A stretch of 61,924 bases of DNA, from contig WTGU01000084.1 in the NCBI GenBank assembly GCA_011523425.1, positions 1-61,924 on the forward strand, given 5' to 3'. Both the position numbers and the translations under genes were made by a program. Source of the DNA: Alphaproteobacteria bacterium. Lineage in GTDB: Bacteria; Pseudomonadota; Alphaproteobacteria; UBA828. Positions 1 through 61,167 of this stretch are shown here, one piece after another; positions within the stretch are counted from its first letter, which is position 1, and each line of letters opens with the position of its first letter. The notes below the pieces were generated by a model. It searched no databases, had not been told where the DNA came from, and was given only the letters and a program-made list of their open reading frames with translations.

Positions 1-4
1 CTAT

Positions 5-28
5 CCCCCTCCTCCCAGGAGGAGGGGG
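5..28. repeat. Extragenic palindrome (perfect hairpin)
   Basis: An 11-base arm of C and T (5-15) is followed two bases later by its exact reverse complement (18-28). It sits beyond the 3' end of ubiH together with a second, larger palindrome at 54-82. No T-tract follows on either strand, so it resembles a dispersed extragenic palindrome more than a classical terminator. Confidence 0.6.
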
Positions 29-53
29 AACGAAAGCGGCGCCACGCTTCTCT

Positions 54-82
54 CCCTCTCCTCCCCGCCGGGGAGGAGAGGG
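54..82. repeat. Extragenic palindrome with 13-bp perfect arms
   Basis: Arm 54-66 is the exact reverse complement of arm 70-82, with a 3-base GCC loop. This CCTCTCC/GGAGAGG type of palindrome is a frequent dispersed element in GC-rich proteobacterial genomes (established knowledge). Function here is unknown; it may protect or terminate transcripts arriving from either side. Confidence 0.6.
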
Positions 83-142
83 CCGGGGAGAGGTGGGGTT
101 TCCGGCACGCGCTGCGTAAGGAAATGAGTGCGTGCGGCCGTT

Positions 143-175
143 GAGCACGATCCCGTCCAGTCGGATCGTGCTCTA
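143..175 (-). repeat. Stop-codon-donating hairpin at the 3' end of ubiH
   Basis: Bases 143-153 (GAGCACGATCC) are the exact reverse complement of 163-173, separated by 9 bases. Read on the minus strand the element starts TAGAGCACGATCC, and its TAG (175-173) is the stop codon of ubiH. The same TAGAGC start occurs in the two longer elements at 27311 and 60581. No T-run follows, so it is not a typical intrinsic terminator. Confidence 0.6.
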
Positions 176-1405
176 AAGCGGCTCGCCGCGGGCGAGGCGC
201 GGTAGGTCGCCGGCGAGCCCCATGGCGTGGCGCATGAAGAAGCGCTTGACCGGCGGCAGCTCGTTGACTGCCGCGAGGCCGACGTCGCGGACCAGACGCA
301 GGCCCTGGCTCTCGTTCGAGAACAGCCTGTTCAGCCCGTCGGTCACCGCGATCAGCACCACGGAATCGAAGCGCCGCCGGCGCTGATAGCGGGTGAGCAC
401 GTCGCTCCCGCCGATGTCGAGGCCGAGGCGCGCGCGGTCGACCACCAGCTCGGCCAGCACCGCGGCGTCGCGGATGCCGAGGTTGAAGCCCTGGCCGGCG
501 AGCGGGTGGATGGCGTGCGCCGCATCGCCCGCGAGCGCGAGCCTGGGCGCGACGTAGCGCTTCGCGTGGGTGAGCGCGAGGGGATAGCTCCAGCGCGGGC
601 CGACCGGCTCCAGCGCGCCGAGGAAGTCGCCGAAGCGCAGCCCCAGCTCGCGCGCGAAGACGGCGTGGGGCGCCTCCAGCAGGGCGGGCGCCAGGCCTGC
701 GCGCTCGGTCCACACCAGGGAGGAGCGGTCGCCGGTCATGGGCAGGATGGCGAAGGGGCCGGCCGGCAGGAAGCGCTCGTGCGCGATGCCCCGGTGCGCC
801 CGCTCGTGCGCCACGGTGCAGACGATGCCCGTCTGCTCGTAGGACCAGCGCACGGTCTCGATTCCGGCGGCCTCCCGCAGTCGGGAGCGGGCGCCGTCGG
901 CGGCGACGGCGAGCCGCGCCCTCACGCATCTCCCGTCCGCGAGCCTGGCGAGCGTCGCGCCCGGCGCGGGCTCCAGCGCCTCCACCGAGGCGGGCGCGAG
1001 ATGGCGGAGCGAGGGCAGCCTCGCGGCGTGCGCGATCAGGCCGGCGCGGATGGCGCGGTTCTCGACGATGAAGCCGAGCGGGCCCGCGCCCACGTCCTTG
1101 TGGTCGTAGTGCAGGAAGAGCGGCGCGTCGCCGTCGGAGACGCGGATCTCCAGGATCGGCTGGGCGTCCCCCGCCAACGCCGGCCACAGGCCGATGGCGT
1201 CGAGCACGCGCTTCGAGCCGAGCGCGATCGACGAGACCCTGCCGTCGAACGCGGCGTCCTTCATCGCCGCAGGCGCAGCACCATCCACCACGACCGTCTC
1301 GATCCCGGCGCCGGCGAGCGCGGTGCCGAGCGTGAGCCCGACGAGGCCGCCGCCGATGACGACGACGTCGCTCTCGATCCGCTCTCCCGAGTCAGCCGCC
1401 GCCAT
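173..1405 (-). CDS. ubiH: UbiH/UbiF/Coq6-family FAD-dependent hydroxylase
   Basis: A 410-residue flavoprotein monooxygenase that hydroxylates the aromatic ring of a polyprenylated ubiquinone precursor, using NAD(P)H, O2 and FAD, probably at the inner membrane. The N-terminal Rossmann motif VVIGGGLVGLT is near residues 15-25. The family signature LAGDAAHAIHPLAGQGFNLG, which contacts the FAD ribityl chain, lies around residue 290. The length is normal for the family. The ATG at 1405-1403 sits directly before the acidic lead-in to the Rossmann strand. UbiH, UbiF, UbiI and the broad-range UbiL/UbiM enzymes cannot be separated by eye, so the ring position is not assigned. The stop codon lies inside the hairpin at 143-175. 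Upstream is a 540-bp gene-free region carrying a phased repeat array. Confidence 0.88.
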   Translation of the reverse strand: MAAADSGERIESDVVVIGGGLVGLTLGTALAGAGIETVVVDGAAPAAMKDAAFDGRVSSIALGSKRVLDAIGLWPALAGDAQPILEIRVSDGDAPLFLHYDHKDVGAGPLGFIVENRAIRAGLIAHAARLPSLRHLAPASVEALEPAPGATLARLADGRCVRARLAVAADGARSRLREAAGIETVRWSYEQTGIVCTVAHERAHRGIAHERFLPAGPFAILPMTGDRSSLVWTERAGLAPALLEAPHAVFARELGLRFGDFLGALEPVGPRWSYPLALTHAKRYVAPRLALAGDAAHAIHPLAGQGFNLGIRDAAVLAELVVDRARLGLDIGGSDVLTRYQRRRRFDSVVLIAVTDGLNRLFSNESQGLRLVRDVGLAAVNELPPVKRFFMRHAMGLAGDLPRLARGEPL

Positions 1406-21280: not shown

Positions 21281-21367
21281 ACGTTGACCGGCCGGCGCGG
21301 TCTGGTCATAACTCTGGCGCGCCGCCGGGCCGCTATCCAGCCCGAGGCGGCGAGGGAGAAGGGCGCC

Positions 21368-22063
21368 ATGATCGATCTCTATTACTGGCCGACGCCGAAC
21401 GGGTGGAAGCTCACCATCCTCTTCGAGGAGCTGGGCCTGCCGTACAACGTGATCCCCGTGGACATCAACAAGGGCGAGCAGTTCGAGCCGGACTTCCTCG
21501 CGATCGCGCCCAACAACCGGATGCCGGCGGTGGTCGATCCCGAGGGCGCCGACGGCAAGCCGCTCAGCCTCTTCGAATCCGGCGCCATCATGCTGCACTA
21601 CGCCGAGAAGCACGGCCGCTTCATCCCGGCGGACGAGCGCGGCCGGGCCGAAGTGCTGCAGTGGCTCTTCTTCCAGATGGGCAATGTCGGGCCGATGCTC
21701 GGCCAGTGCCACCACTTCCGCAACTACGCGCCGGAGCAGCTCCCCTACGCCGTCGAGCGCTACACCAACGAGGCGAGCCGGCTCTATCGCGTGGTGAACA
21801 AGCGGCTGGCGGACCGCGACTGGATCGCCGGCGACTATTCCATCGCCGACATGGCGATCTTCCCGTGGATGCGGCTCTGGTACAACCAGGGGCAGGAGCT
21901 TGAGGACTATCCCCATCTCGGCGCCTGGCTGGAGCGCAACAAGGAGCGGCCGGCGGTGCGGCGCGGCCTCGACGTGATGGCCGACCAGATCCGCAAGAAG
22001 CCCGAGTTCACCGAGGAAGAGCGCTCCATCATGTTCGGCGCCAAGCAGTTCGCCGCGCGCTAG
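21368..22063 (+). CDS. Glutathione S-transferase, YfcG/nu-class-like
   Basis: A 231-residue two-domain GST. The thioredoxin-like N-domain begins MIDLYYWPTPNGWKLTILFE; the Thr and Asn of TPNG correspond to the YfcG glutathione-contacting residues. PLSLFESGAIMLHYAEKHG (about residues 70-88) holds the Glu-Ser pair for the gamma-glutamyl group. The C-domain has SIADMAIFPW, the usual N-capping box. The likely activity is disulfide reduction or peroxidase-type chemistry with glutathione. The ATG at 21368 has GGGAGAAGGG upstream. A close paralogue follows 11 bp downstream. Confidence 0.9.
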   Translation: MIDLYYWPTPNGWKLTILFEELGLPYNVIPVDINKGEQFEPDFLAIAPNNRMPAVVDPEGADGKPLSLFESGAIMLHYAEKHGRFIPADERGRAEVLQWLFFQMGNVGPMLGQCHHFRNYAPEQLPYAVERYTNEASRLYRVVNKRLADRDWIAGDYSIADMAIFPWMRLWYNQGQELEDYPHLGAWLERNKERPAVRRGLDVMADQIRKKPEFTEEERSIMFGAKQFAAR

Positions 22064-22074
22064 GGGGAGCGGAC

Positions 22075-22692
22075 ATGATCGACCTCTACACCTGGGGCAC
22101 GCCCAACGGCTTCAAGGCCTCCATCATGCTGGAGGAGGTGGAGCTCCCCTACCGGGTGCATCCCGTCAACATCATGGCGGACGAGCAGTTCGAGCCTGCG
22201 TTCCTCGAGATCAGCCCCAACAACAAGATCCCGGCGATCGTCGATCCCGACGGGCCGGACGGCGCGCCGATCTCGCTCTTCGAATCGGGCGCGATCCTGC
22301 TCTACCTCGCGGACAAGACCGGCCGGCTGATCCCCGACGACGCGCGCGGGCGCTGGCAGGTGATCGAGTGGCTCATGTTCCAGATGGGGGGCGTCGGGCC
22401 GATGTTCGGCCAGGCCAACCATTTCCGGCGCTTCGCGAGCGAGGAGGTGCCCTACGCGATCGAGCGCTACACCAAGGAGGCGCACCGGCTCTACGGCGTG
22501 ATGGACCGCCGGCTCGCCGAGCGCGACTTCCTCGCCGGCGCCTACTCCATCGCCGATATCGCCTGCTTCGGCTGGGTCGCCCGCTGGGAATGGCACGGCA
22601 TCGACTGGGCCGACTACCCCAACCTGCACCGCTGGTTCGAGACCATCGGCGCGCGCCCCGCGGTGCAGCGGGGGCTCAAGGTCCCGCAATAG
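22075..22692 (+). CDS. Glutathione S-transferase, paralogue of the preceding gene
   Basis: A 205-residue GST with the same layout: MIDLYTWGTPNGFKASIMLE at the N-terminus, ISLFESGAILLYLADKTG (about residues 63-80) and SIADIACFGWV in the C-domain. It lacks the roughly 25-residue C-terminal extension (RKKPEFTEEERSIMFG) of its neighbour. The shared GPM(L/F)GQ..HFR stretch shows that the pair arose by tandem duplication followed by divergence. The ATG at 22075 follows GGGGAG. Confidence 0.9.
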   Translation: MIDLYTWGTPNGFKASIMLEEVELPYRVHPVNIMADEQFEPAFLEISPNNKIPAIVDPDGPDGAPISLFESGAILLYLADKTGRLIPDDARGRWQVIEWLMFQMGGVGPMFGQANHFRRFASEEVPYAIERYTKEAHRLYGVMDRRLAERDFLAGAYSIADIACFGWVARWEWHGIDWADYPNLHRWFETIGARPAVQRGLKVPQ

Positions 22693-26192: not shown

Positions 26193-27311
26193 GTGAGCCT
26201 CGTGATCGACAGCGATTTCGACGGCGGCAACATCCGCTGCCTCGAAGCCTCAGCGCCTGACAGGATCAGGCTCGAGATCGTGCCCGACGCAGGCGGCGAG
26301 TTCTTCCAGTGGTTCTACTTCCGGCTCACCGGCGCCGCCGGCAAGGACTGCGTGCTGCGGATCGAGAATGCAGGCGGCGCCACCTATCCCGAGGGCTGGA
26401 ACGGCTATCGCGCCGTCGCCTCGGAGGACGGTGCGGACTGGCCGCGCGTTGCCACGGACTATGACGGGCGCGTGCTCACGATCCGCCACCGCCCGGCGGG
26501 CGACGAGGTCCGGTTCGCCTACTTCGCCCCCTACTCGATGGCCCGCCACGACGCGCTGATCGCGCGCGCAGGCAAGTCGCCCGTCGTCGACGCGCGCCCG
26601 CTCGGCACCACTCTCGACGGCGCCCGGCTCGACCTGCTGGAGGTCGGCGGCGAGCGGGAGCGCACCTGCTGGGTCATCGGCCGCCAGCACCCGGGCGAGA
26701 CCATGGCCGAGTGGTGGATGGAGGGATTTCTCGACCGGCTGCTGGACCCGCTCGACGCCGCTGCCTCCGCGCTGCTGGAGAGGGCGCGGTTCCGCGTGGT
26801 GCCCAACATGAACCCAGACGGCAGCCGGCGCGGCCATCTCAGGACCAACGCGGCGGGCGTCAACCTCAACCGCGCCTGGGCCGCGCCCAGCATGGAGGAG
26901 AGCCCCGAGGTCTTCCTCGTGCGCGCGGAGATGGCGCGGACCGGCGTCGATGTCTGCATCGACGTGCACGGCGACGAGGGGCTGCCCTACGCCTTCATCG
27001 CCGGGCCCGAGGGCATCCCCTCCTATTCCGACGCGCTCGCAGGCCGGCAGGCGCGCTTCTGCGACGCGCTGGTGGCGGCCAATGCGGACTTCCAGACCGC
27101 TCGCGGCTATCCGCCGACCCCGCCCGGCAAGGCCAATCTCGGCATCTGCGCCAACTACGTGGCGGAGACCCATGGCTGCCTCGCCATGACCCTGGAGCAG
27201 CCCTTCAAGGACGCGGCGAACGCGCCCGATCCCCGCCACGGCTGGTCGCCCGCGCGCTGTCGCCGCCTCGGCCGGAGCTGCGTCGAGGCACTCGCCGCGG
27301 TGCTCGGCTAG
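26193..27311 (+). CDS. M14-family zinc carboxypeptidase, CCP/AGBL-like
   Basis: A 372-residue metallocarboxypeptidase. A beta-rich N-terminal domain (about residues 1-125; EFFQWFYFRLTGA) precedes the catalytic domain, the layout of cytosolic (CCP-type) carboxypeptidases. Zinc ligands are His165 and Glu168 (HPGETMAEWW) and His259 (CIDVHGDEG). The catalytic Glu335 is in LAMTLEQPFKD. NPDGSRRGHLRTNAAGVNLNR contributes substrate-binding Asn/Arg residues. It has no signal peptide and is probably cytoplasmic. GTG start at 26193. Its TAG stop is the first base triplet of the repeat element at 27309-27484. Confidence 0.85.
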   Translation: MSLVIDSDFDGGNIRCLEASAPDRIRLEIVPDAGGEFFQWFYFRLTGAAGKDCVLRIENAGGATYPEGWNGYRAVASEDGADWPRVATDYDGRVLTIRHRPAGDEVRFAYFAPYSMARHDALIARAGKSPVVDARPLGTTLDGARLDLLEVGGERERTCWVIGRQHPGETMAEWWMEGFLDRLLDPLDAAASALLERARFRVVPNMNPDGSRRGHLRTNAAGVNLNRAWAAPSMEESPEVFLVRAEMARTGVDVCIDVHGDEGLPYAFIAGPEGIPSYSDALAGRQARFCDALVAANADFQTARGYPPTPPGKANLGICANYVAETHGCLAMTLEQPFKDAANAPDPRHGWSPARCRRLGRSCVEALAAVLG

Positions 27312-27484
27312 AGCGTATCCGTCTTTGACGGATACGCGACAGGCCGCGACTGCGGCCCGCCGCTTATGCGGCGCCCTCGCGGAGGCGCCGGCCGTCGCGC
27401 CGGCAGGCGCGCGGAATCGCGGAACGGCCGGCTGCCGTGAGCGACAAAGAGGCTAGGGCGTTTCCGTGTGAAGCGGACACGCTC
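27311..27484. repeat. TAGAGCG hairpin element, copy A
   Basis: A 174-bp extragenic element. Its first 63 bases are identical to the copy at 60581. It opens with a perfect 11-bp hairpin (27313-27337, TTT loop), then two short hairpins (CCGC-GACT-GCGG and CGCCGC-TTAT-GCGGCG), a variable GC-rich middle, and a conserved right end containing GAGGCTAG and GCGTTTCCG-N7-CGGACACGC. The preceding TA plus its first base form the TAG stop of the carboxypeptidase. No ORF is inside. It resembles a REP/BIME or small non-autonomous element. Confidence 0.8.
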
Positions 27485-27526
27485 CAGCGGGTCCGGTCTT
27501 TCGCGAATAGCCGTCCGGCCGGGGCG

Positions 27527-50722: not shown

Positions 50723-51817
50723 CTATCCCTCGGCGTCGGACGCCAGGCACCCCGCGAACGAGGCGGCCATGGTGCGCAGCAGCGTCTCGTAGAGCGCCGG
50801 CCCGTCCTCGATGTCGGCGCCAAGCGGGTCGACGGTGCCGGACCGGACGTCGCTGCCTTCGATGACGGTCCGCACCAGGCGCTGGTCGAACTGGGGCTCG
50901 TCGAACACGCAGACCACGCCGAGCGCGTCCAGCTTGTCGCGGAGCTCGGCGATGCGGCGGGCGCCTGGCGGGCGTTCGGGGCTCACCACGACGGAGCCGG
51001 CGGCGGCGAGCCCGAAGCGGTCTTCGAAGTAGCGGTAGCCGTCGTGGAAGACGATGAACGGCATGCCCCGCGCCGGCGCTACCTGGGCTGCGACCTCCCC
51101 GGTCAGACGGTCCAGGCGGTGCAGCAGCGCATCGACGTTCGCCTCGTAGGTCGCGGCGTTGGCGGGGTCGACCTCGGCCAGCGTGGCCGCGATCGCGCGC
51201 GCCATGGTCCAGCCGTTGATGGGGTCGAGCCAGACGTGCAGGTCGTAGGCGCCGTGCTCGTCGTGCTCGTCGGCATGGTCGTCGTGATCGTCGTGCCCGT
51301 GCCCGTGGTCGTCATGATCGTCGTCGCGGTGCATGGCCGCGTCGTGGTCGTCATGGTCGTCATGACCGTGCCCGTGATCGTCCTCTCCCTGATGCCCGTG
51401 GCTGCTGTGGTCGTGCTCCTCGAAGGCGCCGCCCTCGCGGATCGGCTTCTTGATCAGGCCGGGGACGTCGAACAGCCTGACCACGCGCGCGTGCCGCGAC
51501 AGCGCATCGACCGGCCCGGCGAGCGCGGTCTCCATGGTGTCGCCGATCAGGAAGACGACGTCCGCGTCCTCGAGCGCCGCCGCGTCCGAGGGGCGCATGG
51601 TGAAGGTGTGCGGCGACGAGGCGCCCCGGATGACCAGGTGCGGCTCGCCCACGCCCGCCATTACCGCGCTTACCAGCGAATGCACCGGCTTGATCGAGGC
51701 GACGACCTGCAATCCGTCGTCATCGGCCGCGGCCGGCCCCGCGACCGCACAGCCGAGGAGAGCCGCCGCGGCGAGTGTCAGGGCAACGCGTCGTGCTTCC
51801 ATCGCCGGACGATCCAT
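50723..51817 (-). CDS. znuA: Zinc ABC transporter substrate-binding protein ZnuA-like
   Basis: A 364-residue periplasmic zinc-binding protein. The N-terminal signal peptide (RVALTLAAAALLGCAVAGPAAA) precedes VVASIKPVHSLVSAVMAGVG and SSPHTFTMRPSDAAALEDAD, which gives the first metal His. A His/Asp-rich loop of about 55 residues (about 178-233; repeated DDHDDH and HGHGHDDHD units) is a zinc-sensing or scavenging loop. DLHVWLDP, FIVFHDGYRYFEDRFGLAA and DEPQFDQRLV complete the cluster A-I SBP fold. znuB and znuC are not in the window. The ATG at 51817 has GGGGAGA upstream; an internal ATG at 51802 is possible. A candidate Zur site lies just upstream. Confidence 0.92.
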   Translation of the reverse strand: MDRPAMEARRVALTLAAAALLGCAVAGPAAADDDGLQVVASIKPVHSLVSAVMAGVGEPHLVIRGASSPHTFTMRPSDAAALEDADVVFLIGDTMETALAGPVDALSRHARVVRLFDVPGLIKKPIREGGAFEEHDHSSHGHQGEDDHGHGHDDHDDHDAAMHRDDDHDDHGHGHDDHDDHADEHDEHGAYDLHVWLDPINGWTMARAIAATLAEVDPANAATYEANVDALLHRLDRLTGEVAAQVAPARGMPFIVFHDGYRYFEDRFGLAAAGSVVVSPERPPGARRIAELRDKLDALGVVCVFDEPQFDQRLVRTVIEGSDVRSGTVDPLGADIEDGPALYETLLRTMAASFAGCLASDAEG

Positions 51818-58905: not shown

Positions 58906-60255
58906 ATGGCGGCGAAGCGGGTACGCATCGGCTCCGGCGCGGGCTTCGCCGGCGACCGCTGGGAGCCGGCGGTCGAGCTGGTCGAGTGCGGCGATATCGA
59001 CTACATCGCCTTCGAATGCCTCGCCGAGCGCACCATCGCGCGCGAGACGCTGGCGGCGCGGCGGGGCGAGGGGAGCGGCTACAACCCCCAGCTCGAGGAC
59101 CGCATGCGCGCGGTGCTGCCGCCGGCGGCCGCGCGGGGCGTGCGGGTGCTCAGCAACATGGGCGCTGCCGACCCGCTGGCGGCCGGGCGCAGGACGGCCG
59201 ATATCGCGGCCGAACTCGGGCTCGACGACCGCCGCTGCGCGGTTCTGCTCGGCGACGACGTGCGGGATGACGTCGCCGCCCGCCCGGCGCTTCCCCTGAT
59301 GGAGTCGGGCGAGCCGCTCGAAAGCATCCTGCCGCGCATGGCGTCGGCGAACGCCTATCTCGGCGCCGATGCCGTGTCGTTCGCTCTCTCAACCGGCGCG
59401 CCGGTGGTGCTGACCGGCCGGGTCGCGGATCCCTCGCTCTTCGTCGGCCCCATCGTCCACGCTCTCGGCATGCCCTACGACGAGGACGACCGCCTCGCCC
59501 AGGCCACGGTGGCCGGTCACCTGCTGGAATGCGCGGGCCAGGTGACCGGCGGCTACTTCGCCGACCCCGGCGTCAAGGACGTGCCGGGGCTCGCGCGCCT
59601 CGGCTTCCCCTTCGCCGACGTGAGCGACGACGGCGCGGTCACCATCGGCAAGTGTGCGAACACGGGCGGGCGCATCGACGTCTCCACCTGCACCGAGCAG
59701 CTCCTCTACGAGGTGGACGATCCCGCGGCCTACGTCACGCCCGACTGCGTGCTCGACATGACCGGCATCGCGCTGCGCGAGGCGGGGCCGGATCGTGTGT
59801 CGGTCTCGGGCGCCCGGGCGCGTCCGCGCACCGGGACCTACAAGGTGAGCATTGGCTACTTCGACGGCTACCTGGGAGACGGGCAGCTCTCCTACGGTGG
59901 CCCCGGCGCCCAGGCGCGCGCCCGCCTCGCCGGCGAGATCGTGACGGAGAGGCTCCGGCTCAGGGGCTTCGCCTTCGATGCGCTGGAGGCGCGCCTGATC
60001 GGCCTCGACAGCCTGCACGGGCCGGGCGACGGCCGGCCCGAGCCCTACGAGGTCAGGCTCCGCGTCAGCGGGCGGACGCAGGATCGCAAGGCCGCGGAGG
60101 CGGTGGGCTTCGAGGTCGCGGCGCTCTACACCAACGGGCCGGCGGGCGGGGCCGGCGATTCGGCGTCTGTGCGCGAAATCCTCGCGGTGCAGTCGGTGCT
60201 GCTGCCGCGCGCGCTGGTCAGGCCCCGGGTCGAGGTGGTGGGAGACGCAGGTTGA
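58906..60255 (+). CDS. AtuA-family (DUF1446) acyclic terpene utilisation protein
   Basis: A 449-residue protein of the AtuA/DUF1446 family. RIGSGAGFAGDRWEPAVELV (residues 6-25), DYIAFECLAERTIA (about 31-44), GRVADPSLFVGPIVHALGMP (about 168-187), HLLECAGQVTGGYFADPG and ANTGGRIDVSTCTEQLLYEV are family hallmarks. AtuA is needed for citronellol and geraniol use in Pseudomonas but its reaction is not firmly known. It follows the molybdenum hydroxylase after 36 bp and overlaps the next gene by 1 bp. Confidence 0.87.
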   Translation: MAAKRVRIGSGAGFAGDRWEPAVELVECGDIDYIAFECLAERTIARETLAARRGEGSGYNPQLEDRMRAVLPPAAARGVRVLSNMGAADPLAAGRRTADIAAELGLDDRRCAVLLGDDVRDDVAARPALPLMESGEPLESILPRMASANAYLGADAVSFALSTGAPVVLTGRVADPSLFVGPIVHALGMPYDEDDRLAQATVAGHLLECAGQVTGGYFADPGVKDVPGLARLGFPFADVSDDGAVTIGKCANTGGRIDVSTCTEQLLYEVDDPAAYVTPDCVLDMTGIALREAGPDRVSVSGARARPRTGTYKVSIGYFDGYLGDGQLSYGGPGAQARARLAGEIVTERLRLRGFAFDALEARLIGLDSLHGPGDGRPEPYEVRLRVSGRTQDRKAAEAVGFEVAALYTNGPAGGAGDSASVREILAVQSVLLPRALVRPRVEVVGDAG

Positions 60256-60581
60256 TGCAGGTCAGGGTGCGCGATCTGGCGCATGCCCGCGCCGGCGACA
60301 AGGGGACCAGCGTCAACGTCTCGGTCATCGCCTTCGACGAGGCGGGCTACGAGCGGCTCACGCGGGAGCTGACCGAGGCGCGGGTACAGGCCGCCTTCGC
60401 CGCGCTGGCGGAAGGGCCCGTGCGGCGCTATGCGCTGCCGGCGCTCGGTGCGCTCAACTTCGTCATCGAACGCGTCTGCGGCGGCGGCGTGACCGCGACC
60501 GGCGCGCTCGACATCCACGGCAAGAGTCTCTCCTCGCTGATGCTCACGATCCCGCTGCCGGGCAACGAGCCGGAGGGATAG
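60255..60581 (+). CDS. AtuA-associated ferredoxin-fold-like small protein
   Basis: A 108-residue partner that is fused to the C-terminus of AtuA in many organisms but separate here. VRVRDLAHARAGDKGTSVNV (residues 2-21) and a late SLSSLMLTIPLP are the family marks. The overlap with the AtuA gene (TGATG) points to a one-to-one complex. Its TAG stop (60579-60581) is shared with the repeat element that fills the gap to dtd. Confidence 0.85.
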   Translation: MQVRVRDLAHARAGDKGTSVNVSVIAFDEAGYERLTRELTEARVQAAFAALAEGPVRRYALPALGALNFVIERVCGGGVTATGALDIHGKSLSSLMLTIPLPGNEPEG

Positions 60582-60725
60582 AGCGTATCCGTCTTTGACG
60601 GATACGCGACAGGCCGCGACTGCGGCCCGCCGCTTATGCGGCGCGCCCGCGCAGGCGTCGGCTGCAAGCCGACTGCCGCGAGCGATAAAGAGGCTAGAGC
60701 GTCTCCGTGTGAAGCGGACACGCTC
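60581..60725. repeat. TAGAGCG hairpin element, copy B
   Basis: A 145-bp copy whose first 63 bases equal those of copy A at 27311, followed by a different middle and the same right end (GAGGCTAG, then GCGTCTCCG-N7-CGGACACGC). It spans exactly the space between two convergent genes. Its left TAG is the stop codon of the AtuA-partner gene, and its right end, read on the minus strand (TGAGCGTGTCCG), supplies the TGA stop of dtd. The opening hairpin 60583-60607 has 11 perfect base pairs. Confidence 0.85.
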
Positions 60726-61167
60726 AGCCCGCCGTGTCCAGCCAGATCGTGACCGGGCCGTCGTTGACGAGGTGGACCTGCATCACCTGGCCGAAGCGCC
60801 CGGTGGCGACCGGCACCCCGTGCCCGGCGAGGGAGGCGGTGAAGAGCTCGTAGAGCCGCTCGCCCTCGTCCGGCGGGGCGGCATGGGAGAAGCCCGGCCG
60901 GTTGCCGCGGCTCGTGTCGGCGGCGAGCGTGAACTGGCTCACCACCAGCGCGGCCCCCCCGCTCGCCAGCACCGAGAGGTTCATCTTGCCCGGCTCGCTC
61001 TCGAAGATGCGCAGGTTGGCGATCTTGCGCGCCAGAAGTCGGGCCTCGTCGTCGCCGTCGCCCTGCATGGCGCAGACGAGGACCAGCATGCCGTTCTCGA
61101 CCTCGCCGACCGTCTCGCCGGCGATATCGACGCGGGCTCCGGCGACCCGCTGGATCAGCGCCCTCAT
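60724..61167 (-). CDS. dtd: D-aminoacyl-tRNA deacylase
   Basis: A 147-residue DTD that removes D-amino acids from tRNA. It begins [20 protein letters not shown] and contains [14 protein letters not shown] (about residues 46-59), [20 protein letters not shown] (about 77-96; the SQFTL motif) and [12 protein letters not shown] near the end (the cross-subunit Gly-Pro motif). Length is normal. The frame is open upstream, but ATG 61167 is the family start. Its stop codon is contributed by the repeat element at 60581-60725. Confidence 0.95.

Follow-up and report, generated by a model that had tools for sequence, protein, structure and literature searches.

Miniature TA-inserted elements that probably rebuild the stop codons they enter in a GC-rich alphaproteobacterial genome

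Two copies of a hairpin-rich, non-coding element, A and B, lie exactly at gene ends in the 61,924-nucleotide stretch of alphaproteobacterial DNA analysed here (the window; contig C123, 71% GC), which belongs to a draft genome of 3.62 Mb that is 99% complete. Both are very probably non-autonomous, MITE-like elements of the IS630/Tc1-mariner type that enter TA dinucleotides, preferably within YTAR, with the stop codons that they enter being rebuilt and other insertions being lost. They represent a new MITE family of an already known kind. Stop codons were called with a home-made gene caller that uses codon usage and was trained on the loci, on which all stop counts given below rest, and the genes adjoining these stop codons were identified by gene call and Pfam.

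Copy A (27309-27484, forward strand) consists of a TA duplication and a 174-bp core; the family was collected by BLAST and its ends were set by comparing copies. The first three bases of the copy (27309-27311, forward) are the TAG stop of an M14 carboxypeptidase gene (26193-27311), as indicated by gene call, Pfam and empty-site comparison with relatives, and this codon is composed of the target TA and the G of the element. Hairpins predicted by RNA folding follow on the same strand: H1 (27313-27337), which is the left terminal inverted repeat and whose arms vary from copy to copy in a compensatory way that preserves pairing, H2 (27342-27357), H3 (27359-27372) and H5 (27456-27484), the right terminal inverted repeat. 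Comparison of copies leads us to expect TA after the right end, and the decayed duplication reads CA (27485-27486, forward). Copy B (60579-60725, forward) has a TA duplication and a 145-bp core. It forms the TAG (60579-60581, forward) of an AtuA-ferredoxin-like gene (60255-60581), while its last two bases, together with the A left over from a right target duplication that has lost one base, form the TGA (60724-60726, minus strand) of the convergent gene dtd (60724-61167, minus strand). A preliminary description made from the letters of the window had reported two such copies at stop codons, with copy B supplying the TGA of dtd, and both copies were recovered, each TAG terminating the upstream gene in frame and the gene call and Pfam agreeing on dtd. 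The starts that it gave, 27311 and 60581, are the last bases of each TAG, as the TAGAGCG motif itself starts at 27309 and 60579. The left end is identical between the copies as it claimed, over 66 bp instead of 63 bp, and the right end is indeed conserved (91% identity over 58 nt).

The two copies belong to a family with at least 57 curated, non-redundant members in the genome. BLAST gave at least 45 matches to the family (40 of 271 candidates scored), and the genome-wide search for the left end that the preliminary description had proposed returned 54 matches to the left hairpin with at most three mismatches, against none for the reversed control; the right hairpin has 25 matches. Full copies are non-coding and measure 147-231 bp including one TA (core about 145-229 bp). 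Their terminal inverted repeats read GAGCGT-TCCG at either end, inverted, with outer ends GAGCG...CGCTC, and they fold as H1, H2, H3, a variable H4 and H5. Palindromes resembling H1 and H5 are also found alone (e.g., C89:53163-53195 and C103:21601-21633). Perfect TAGAGC...GCTCTA palindromes were tried as a general class and rejected: they occur at just eight sites, all of main-family hairpin types, which is below the control, and the hexamer pair is uninformative alone. Several copies are adjoined by a further interspersed inverted repeat, approximately GTCATGGCCGGGCTTGTCCCGGCCATCCACG...GATGCCCGGAACAAGTCCGGGCATGACGA, which lies downstream of the element at loci L101, L120 and L129 and is also seen at L169. 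At locus L089 (contig C24, about 133-294) the right TA of a copy doubles as the TA of a TAGAGCACGATCC repeat; two families joined at one TA are expected from successive TA insertions.

Tabulating the copies against the nearest stop codon, another check suggested in the preliminary description, showed that their positions are not random. An end of the element serves as stop codon to the adjoining gene in 45 of 57 copies (79%), namely the left end in 25, the right end, with the gene on the other strand, in 16, and both ends in four. Intact copies read N-TA-[GAGCG...CGCTC]-TA-N, and 19 stop copies have TA on both sides. If an existing stop codon had been entered, its third base must now lie just past the far TA, and this matches what is observed: that base completes the old stop in 18 of the 19 intact copies. 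Among the intact copies whose right end supplies the stop, the left TA is preceded by C in ten, by T in two and by A in one, hence by a pyrimidine in 12 of 13. All three intact copies whose left end supplies it have G directly after the right TA, and three both-end copies give the reconstructed sites CTAA, CTAA and TTAG.

Orthologues in seven congeneric sister genomes agree with this. The end residue is the same in 87 of 100 comparisons (22 of 28 genes, gyrB included), and a recognisable element follows only a few of those orthologue stops. The idea that insertions truncate genes can thus be rejected for most of them, as the orthologues stop at the same residue. The site of copy B is preserved empty in sister genome G005 (L170) as TTAG, GATTAGCC, where two convergent stops overlap: the upstream gene terminates in TAG and dtd, on the opposite strand, in TAA, and one TA is common to both. 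Insertion at this shared TA would have formed both stops at once, and dtd would have acquired its present TGA when the right TA lost a base. In sister genome G001 (L165) the orthologous stop of the copy A gene bears a member of the family inserted the other way round, and insertion at this stop apparently took place on separate occasions there and here. Some genes have TGA in every sister orthologue (e.g., those at L103 and L131), so at those loci a change from TGA to TAG before insertion must be assumed. Judged by these comparisons, the element is best read as having entered the TA of an existing TAG or TAA stop, with its GAGCG end rebuilding TAG.

We then compared the sites with the TA dinucleotides available in the gaps between genes, counted in the window and the loci analysed. 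Inferred empty sites are YTAR in 22 of 31 cases, compared with 107 of 491 gap TAs (p = 7e-9), and no consensus beyond YTAR is obvious in them by eye. Between co-directional or convergent genes, 104 of 329 gap TAs (32%) lie at a stop, a share that rises to 49 of 79 (62%) when only YTAR is counted; the fraction of copies at stops exceeds both expectations (p = 3e-13 for all TA, p = 0.005 for YTAR). None of the 57 copies lies in a divergent gap, though 162 of the 491 gap TAs do. The target sequence, combined with the disappearance of insertions that fall in genes or promoters, accounts for most of the stop excess but leaves a residual. This residual may reflect mild selection for hairpins at gene ends, a more refined target preference, or quicker decay of copies away from stops, the last being suggested by the three non-stop copies with a recognised right end, each of which has lost TA on at least one side.

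The mechanism that we propose for these observations would run as follows. An IS630-family transposase, since lost from the genome, probably moved the elements in trans and inserted them into TA, with YTAR preferred. At 71% GC, TA is scarce outside stops, and YTAR, where it falls outside genes and promoters, is mostly part of a TAG or TAA stop codon. Insertion there would be nearly neutral, since TA followed by the GAG... end gives TAG at once, and where convergent genes share one TA both stops would be rebuilt. Insertions within genes or in divergent, promoter-containing gaps would be removed by selection. The preliminary description had seen in the stop-codon position either target choice or selection for 3' end processing. 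It was right that the position is not due to chance and that targeting is involved; the target appears to be TA, preferably in YTAR, and not the stop codon as such. Selection for 3' end processing is unnecessary for most of the effect and may still contribute to the residual excess.

The alternative that survives best, which we nevertheless consider unlikely, is that selection retains the hairpins at gene ends for some benefit to the mRNA, as terminators, RNase barriers or sites of 3' processing, and that their position does not reflect targeting. The strong multi-hairpin fold of the elements (z = -4.7 for copy A and -6.3 for copy B; no Rfam family matched the window at gathering score), their avoidance of divergent gaps and the part of the stop fraction that exceeds the YTAR expectation are what such a benefit would lead one to expect, as is the compensatory change that keeps H1 paired (93% paired, compared with 87% for permuted arms). 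Correction of palindromes during replication could equally keep this pairing, and the H1 pattern fits either a palindrome constraint or such correction. A benefit to the mRNA leaves unexplained why the first base of the element falls exactly on the stop and not some bases downstream, and it does not account for the TA duplication and the vestigial stop base. Moreover, there is no U-run and there are no terminator-like sites around copy A, and just 38 of 67 sister-species copies form a stop (under a strict rule, with copies found by core sequence excluding the ends). The first hairpin begins at most two bases from the stop codon, and REPs within 15 nt of a stop have been reported to stall ribosomes (PMC12306157); by analogy, an effect of the element on translation termination is conceivable.

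True stop-codon targeting, in which the transposase would recognise stop codons or gene ends as such, is very improbable. It draws on the excess of stop copies over the YTAR expectation, and on the fact that copies with both TAs intact are nearly all at stops. However, the sister-species copies show no excess, and most of the effect is covered by the TA/CTAG preference known for IS630, a preference for TA within CTAG (Tenzen and Ohtsubo 1991, title cited in PMC2170065). For their part, REP or REPIN elements, which are likewise many-copy intergenic palindromes near gene ends, can practically be dismissed, since the RAYT/TnpA_REP-like transposase (PF01797, Y1_Tnp) for which the preliminary description had advised a search has no match in eight genomes of the genus, the control search being positive in 5 of 14 genomes, and since the elements carry a TA duplication, which to our knowledge is not a feature of RAYT.

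TA duplication is a hallmark of IS630/Tc1-mariner elements (PMC2170065), and candidate partners are found in sister species. Two IS630 elements there, at L265 (G003) and L264 (G002), have ends of the form TA|GAGC...GCTC|TA that are 1052 and 1056 bp apart, respectively, and enclose a transposase matching NF033545 (E = 5.5e-61 at L265 and 2.4e-42 at L264). The right end of both forms the stop of the next gene (position 2454 of L264, 2026 of L265). The genome that carries copies A and B (G000) yielded no IS630 transposase. The end of the main family (GAGCGTATCCGTC) can be matched to the IS630 end (GAGCACTATCCGATC) only if gaps are allowed, and thus it is by inference that we assign its mobilisation to IS630.

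A closer tie to IS630 exists at the start of the window. A 31-bp hairpin, GAGCACGATCC...GGATCGTGCTC (143-173, minus strand), has the sequence of an IS630 end, its first 13 bases (GAGCACGATCCGA) being identical to an IS630 end of sister species, and it abuts the TAG (173-175, minus strand) of a ubiH-like FAD monooxygenase gene (173-1405, minus strand; gene call and Pfam). The preliminary description had taken this hairpin, at 143-175, for a short form of the A and B elements. It does form the TAG stop of the ubiH-like gene, but genome matches indicate that it is one end of a longer repeat (1-175, minus strand) cut by the contig edge; this extension and the 13-base identity place it with a repeat other than the A and B family. 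Among non-coding matches to the end of this repeat with at most two mismatches, 12 of 25 form a stop. The 1-175 repeat is also present at or near the ends of many contigs (e.g., C156, C81, C46, C67, C100, C145, C115, C29, C131 and C110), and for this reason it probably breaks the assembly. A second repeat family begins (T/C)AGAGCA(C/T)TATCCGACC..GGTCACCACGGC (loci L360, L362, L367, L370, L374, L375, L378, L379 and L381-L386); many of its copies are near contig ends, and about half of the non-coding ones form the stop codon of a gene.

The closest known counterpart is RUP of Streptococcus pneumoniae, described in PMC2229807 as a 107-bp element with IS630-Spn1 as its proposed mover. According to the same review, RUP resembles the family described here in being short, non-coding and intergenic, with inverted-repeat ends, a TA target and IS630-like ends. 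The sequence differs, however, as does the multi-hairpin middle of the present elements, and here the end together with TA spells TAG so that most copies form a stop, which is not among the features reported in that account of RUP. Members of the IS630 family (IS630 of Shigella, ISY100) share the TA duplication, and those of the sister species also share GAGC ends that form stops, whereas the window elements are without a transposase gene. ERIC/RU-1 and Correia/nemis elements are likewise TA-flanked, miniature and foldable as RNA (PMC2229807 and, in part, general knowledge), a likeness by description only, and occur in other hosts. The CIR elements of Caulobacter are also alphaproteobacterial intergenic inverted repeats, but they carry the GANTC methylation site, which is present here in only 8 of 31 full copies. 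In the literature searched, mostly non-subscription papers, we found no report of stop codons being re-created by such ends.

Healing of the entered stop codon is a consequence of the end sequence of the family, and it offers a mechanical reason why mobile hairpins crowd gene ends in GC-rich bacteria that invokes neither stop-specific targeting nor function: target sequence and end sequence together can create a harmless niche. A hairpin abutting a stop codon therefore need not be regulatory. It is a tentative and rather doubtful extension of this proposal that the GAG... ends were shaped by selection to heal the stops that they enter, and that stops in this lineage would serve several families of elements, along with their IS630 partners, as a genome-wide safe harbour.

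Two other kinds of repeats were observed in the window. Positions 21367-21666 and 22074-22373 are 300-bp direct repeats, 71% identical, in neighboring genes, and probably reflect a tandem gene duplication. Imperfect short repeats (CGTGGTCGTCATG...) at 51274-51381, close to where a minus-strand gene ends, may code for a low-complexity stretch.
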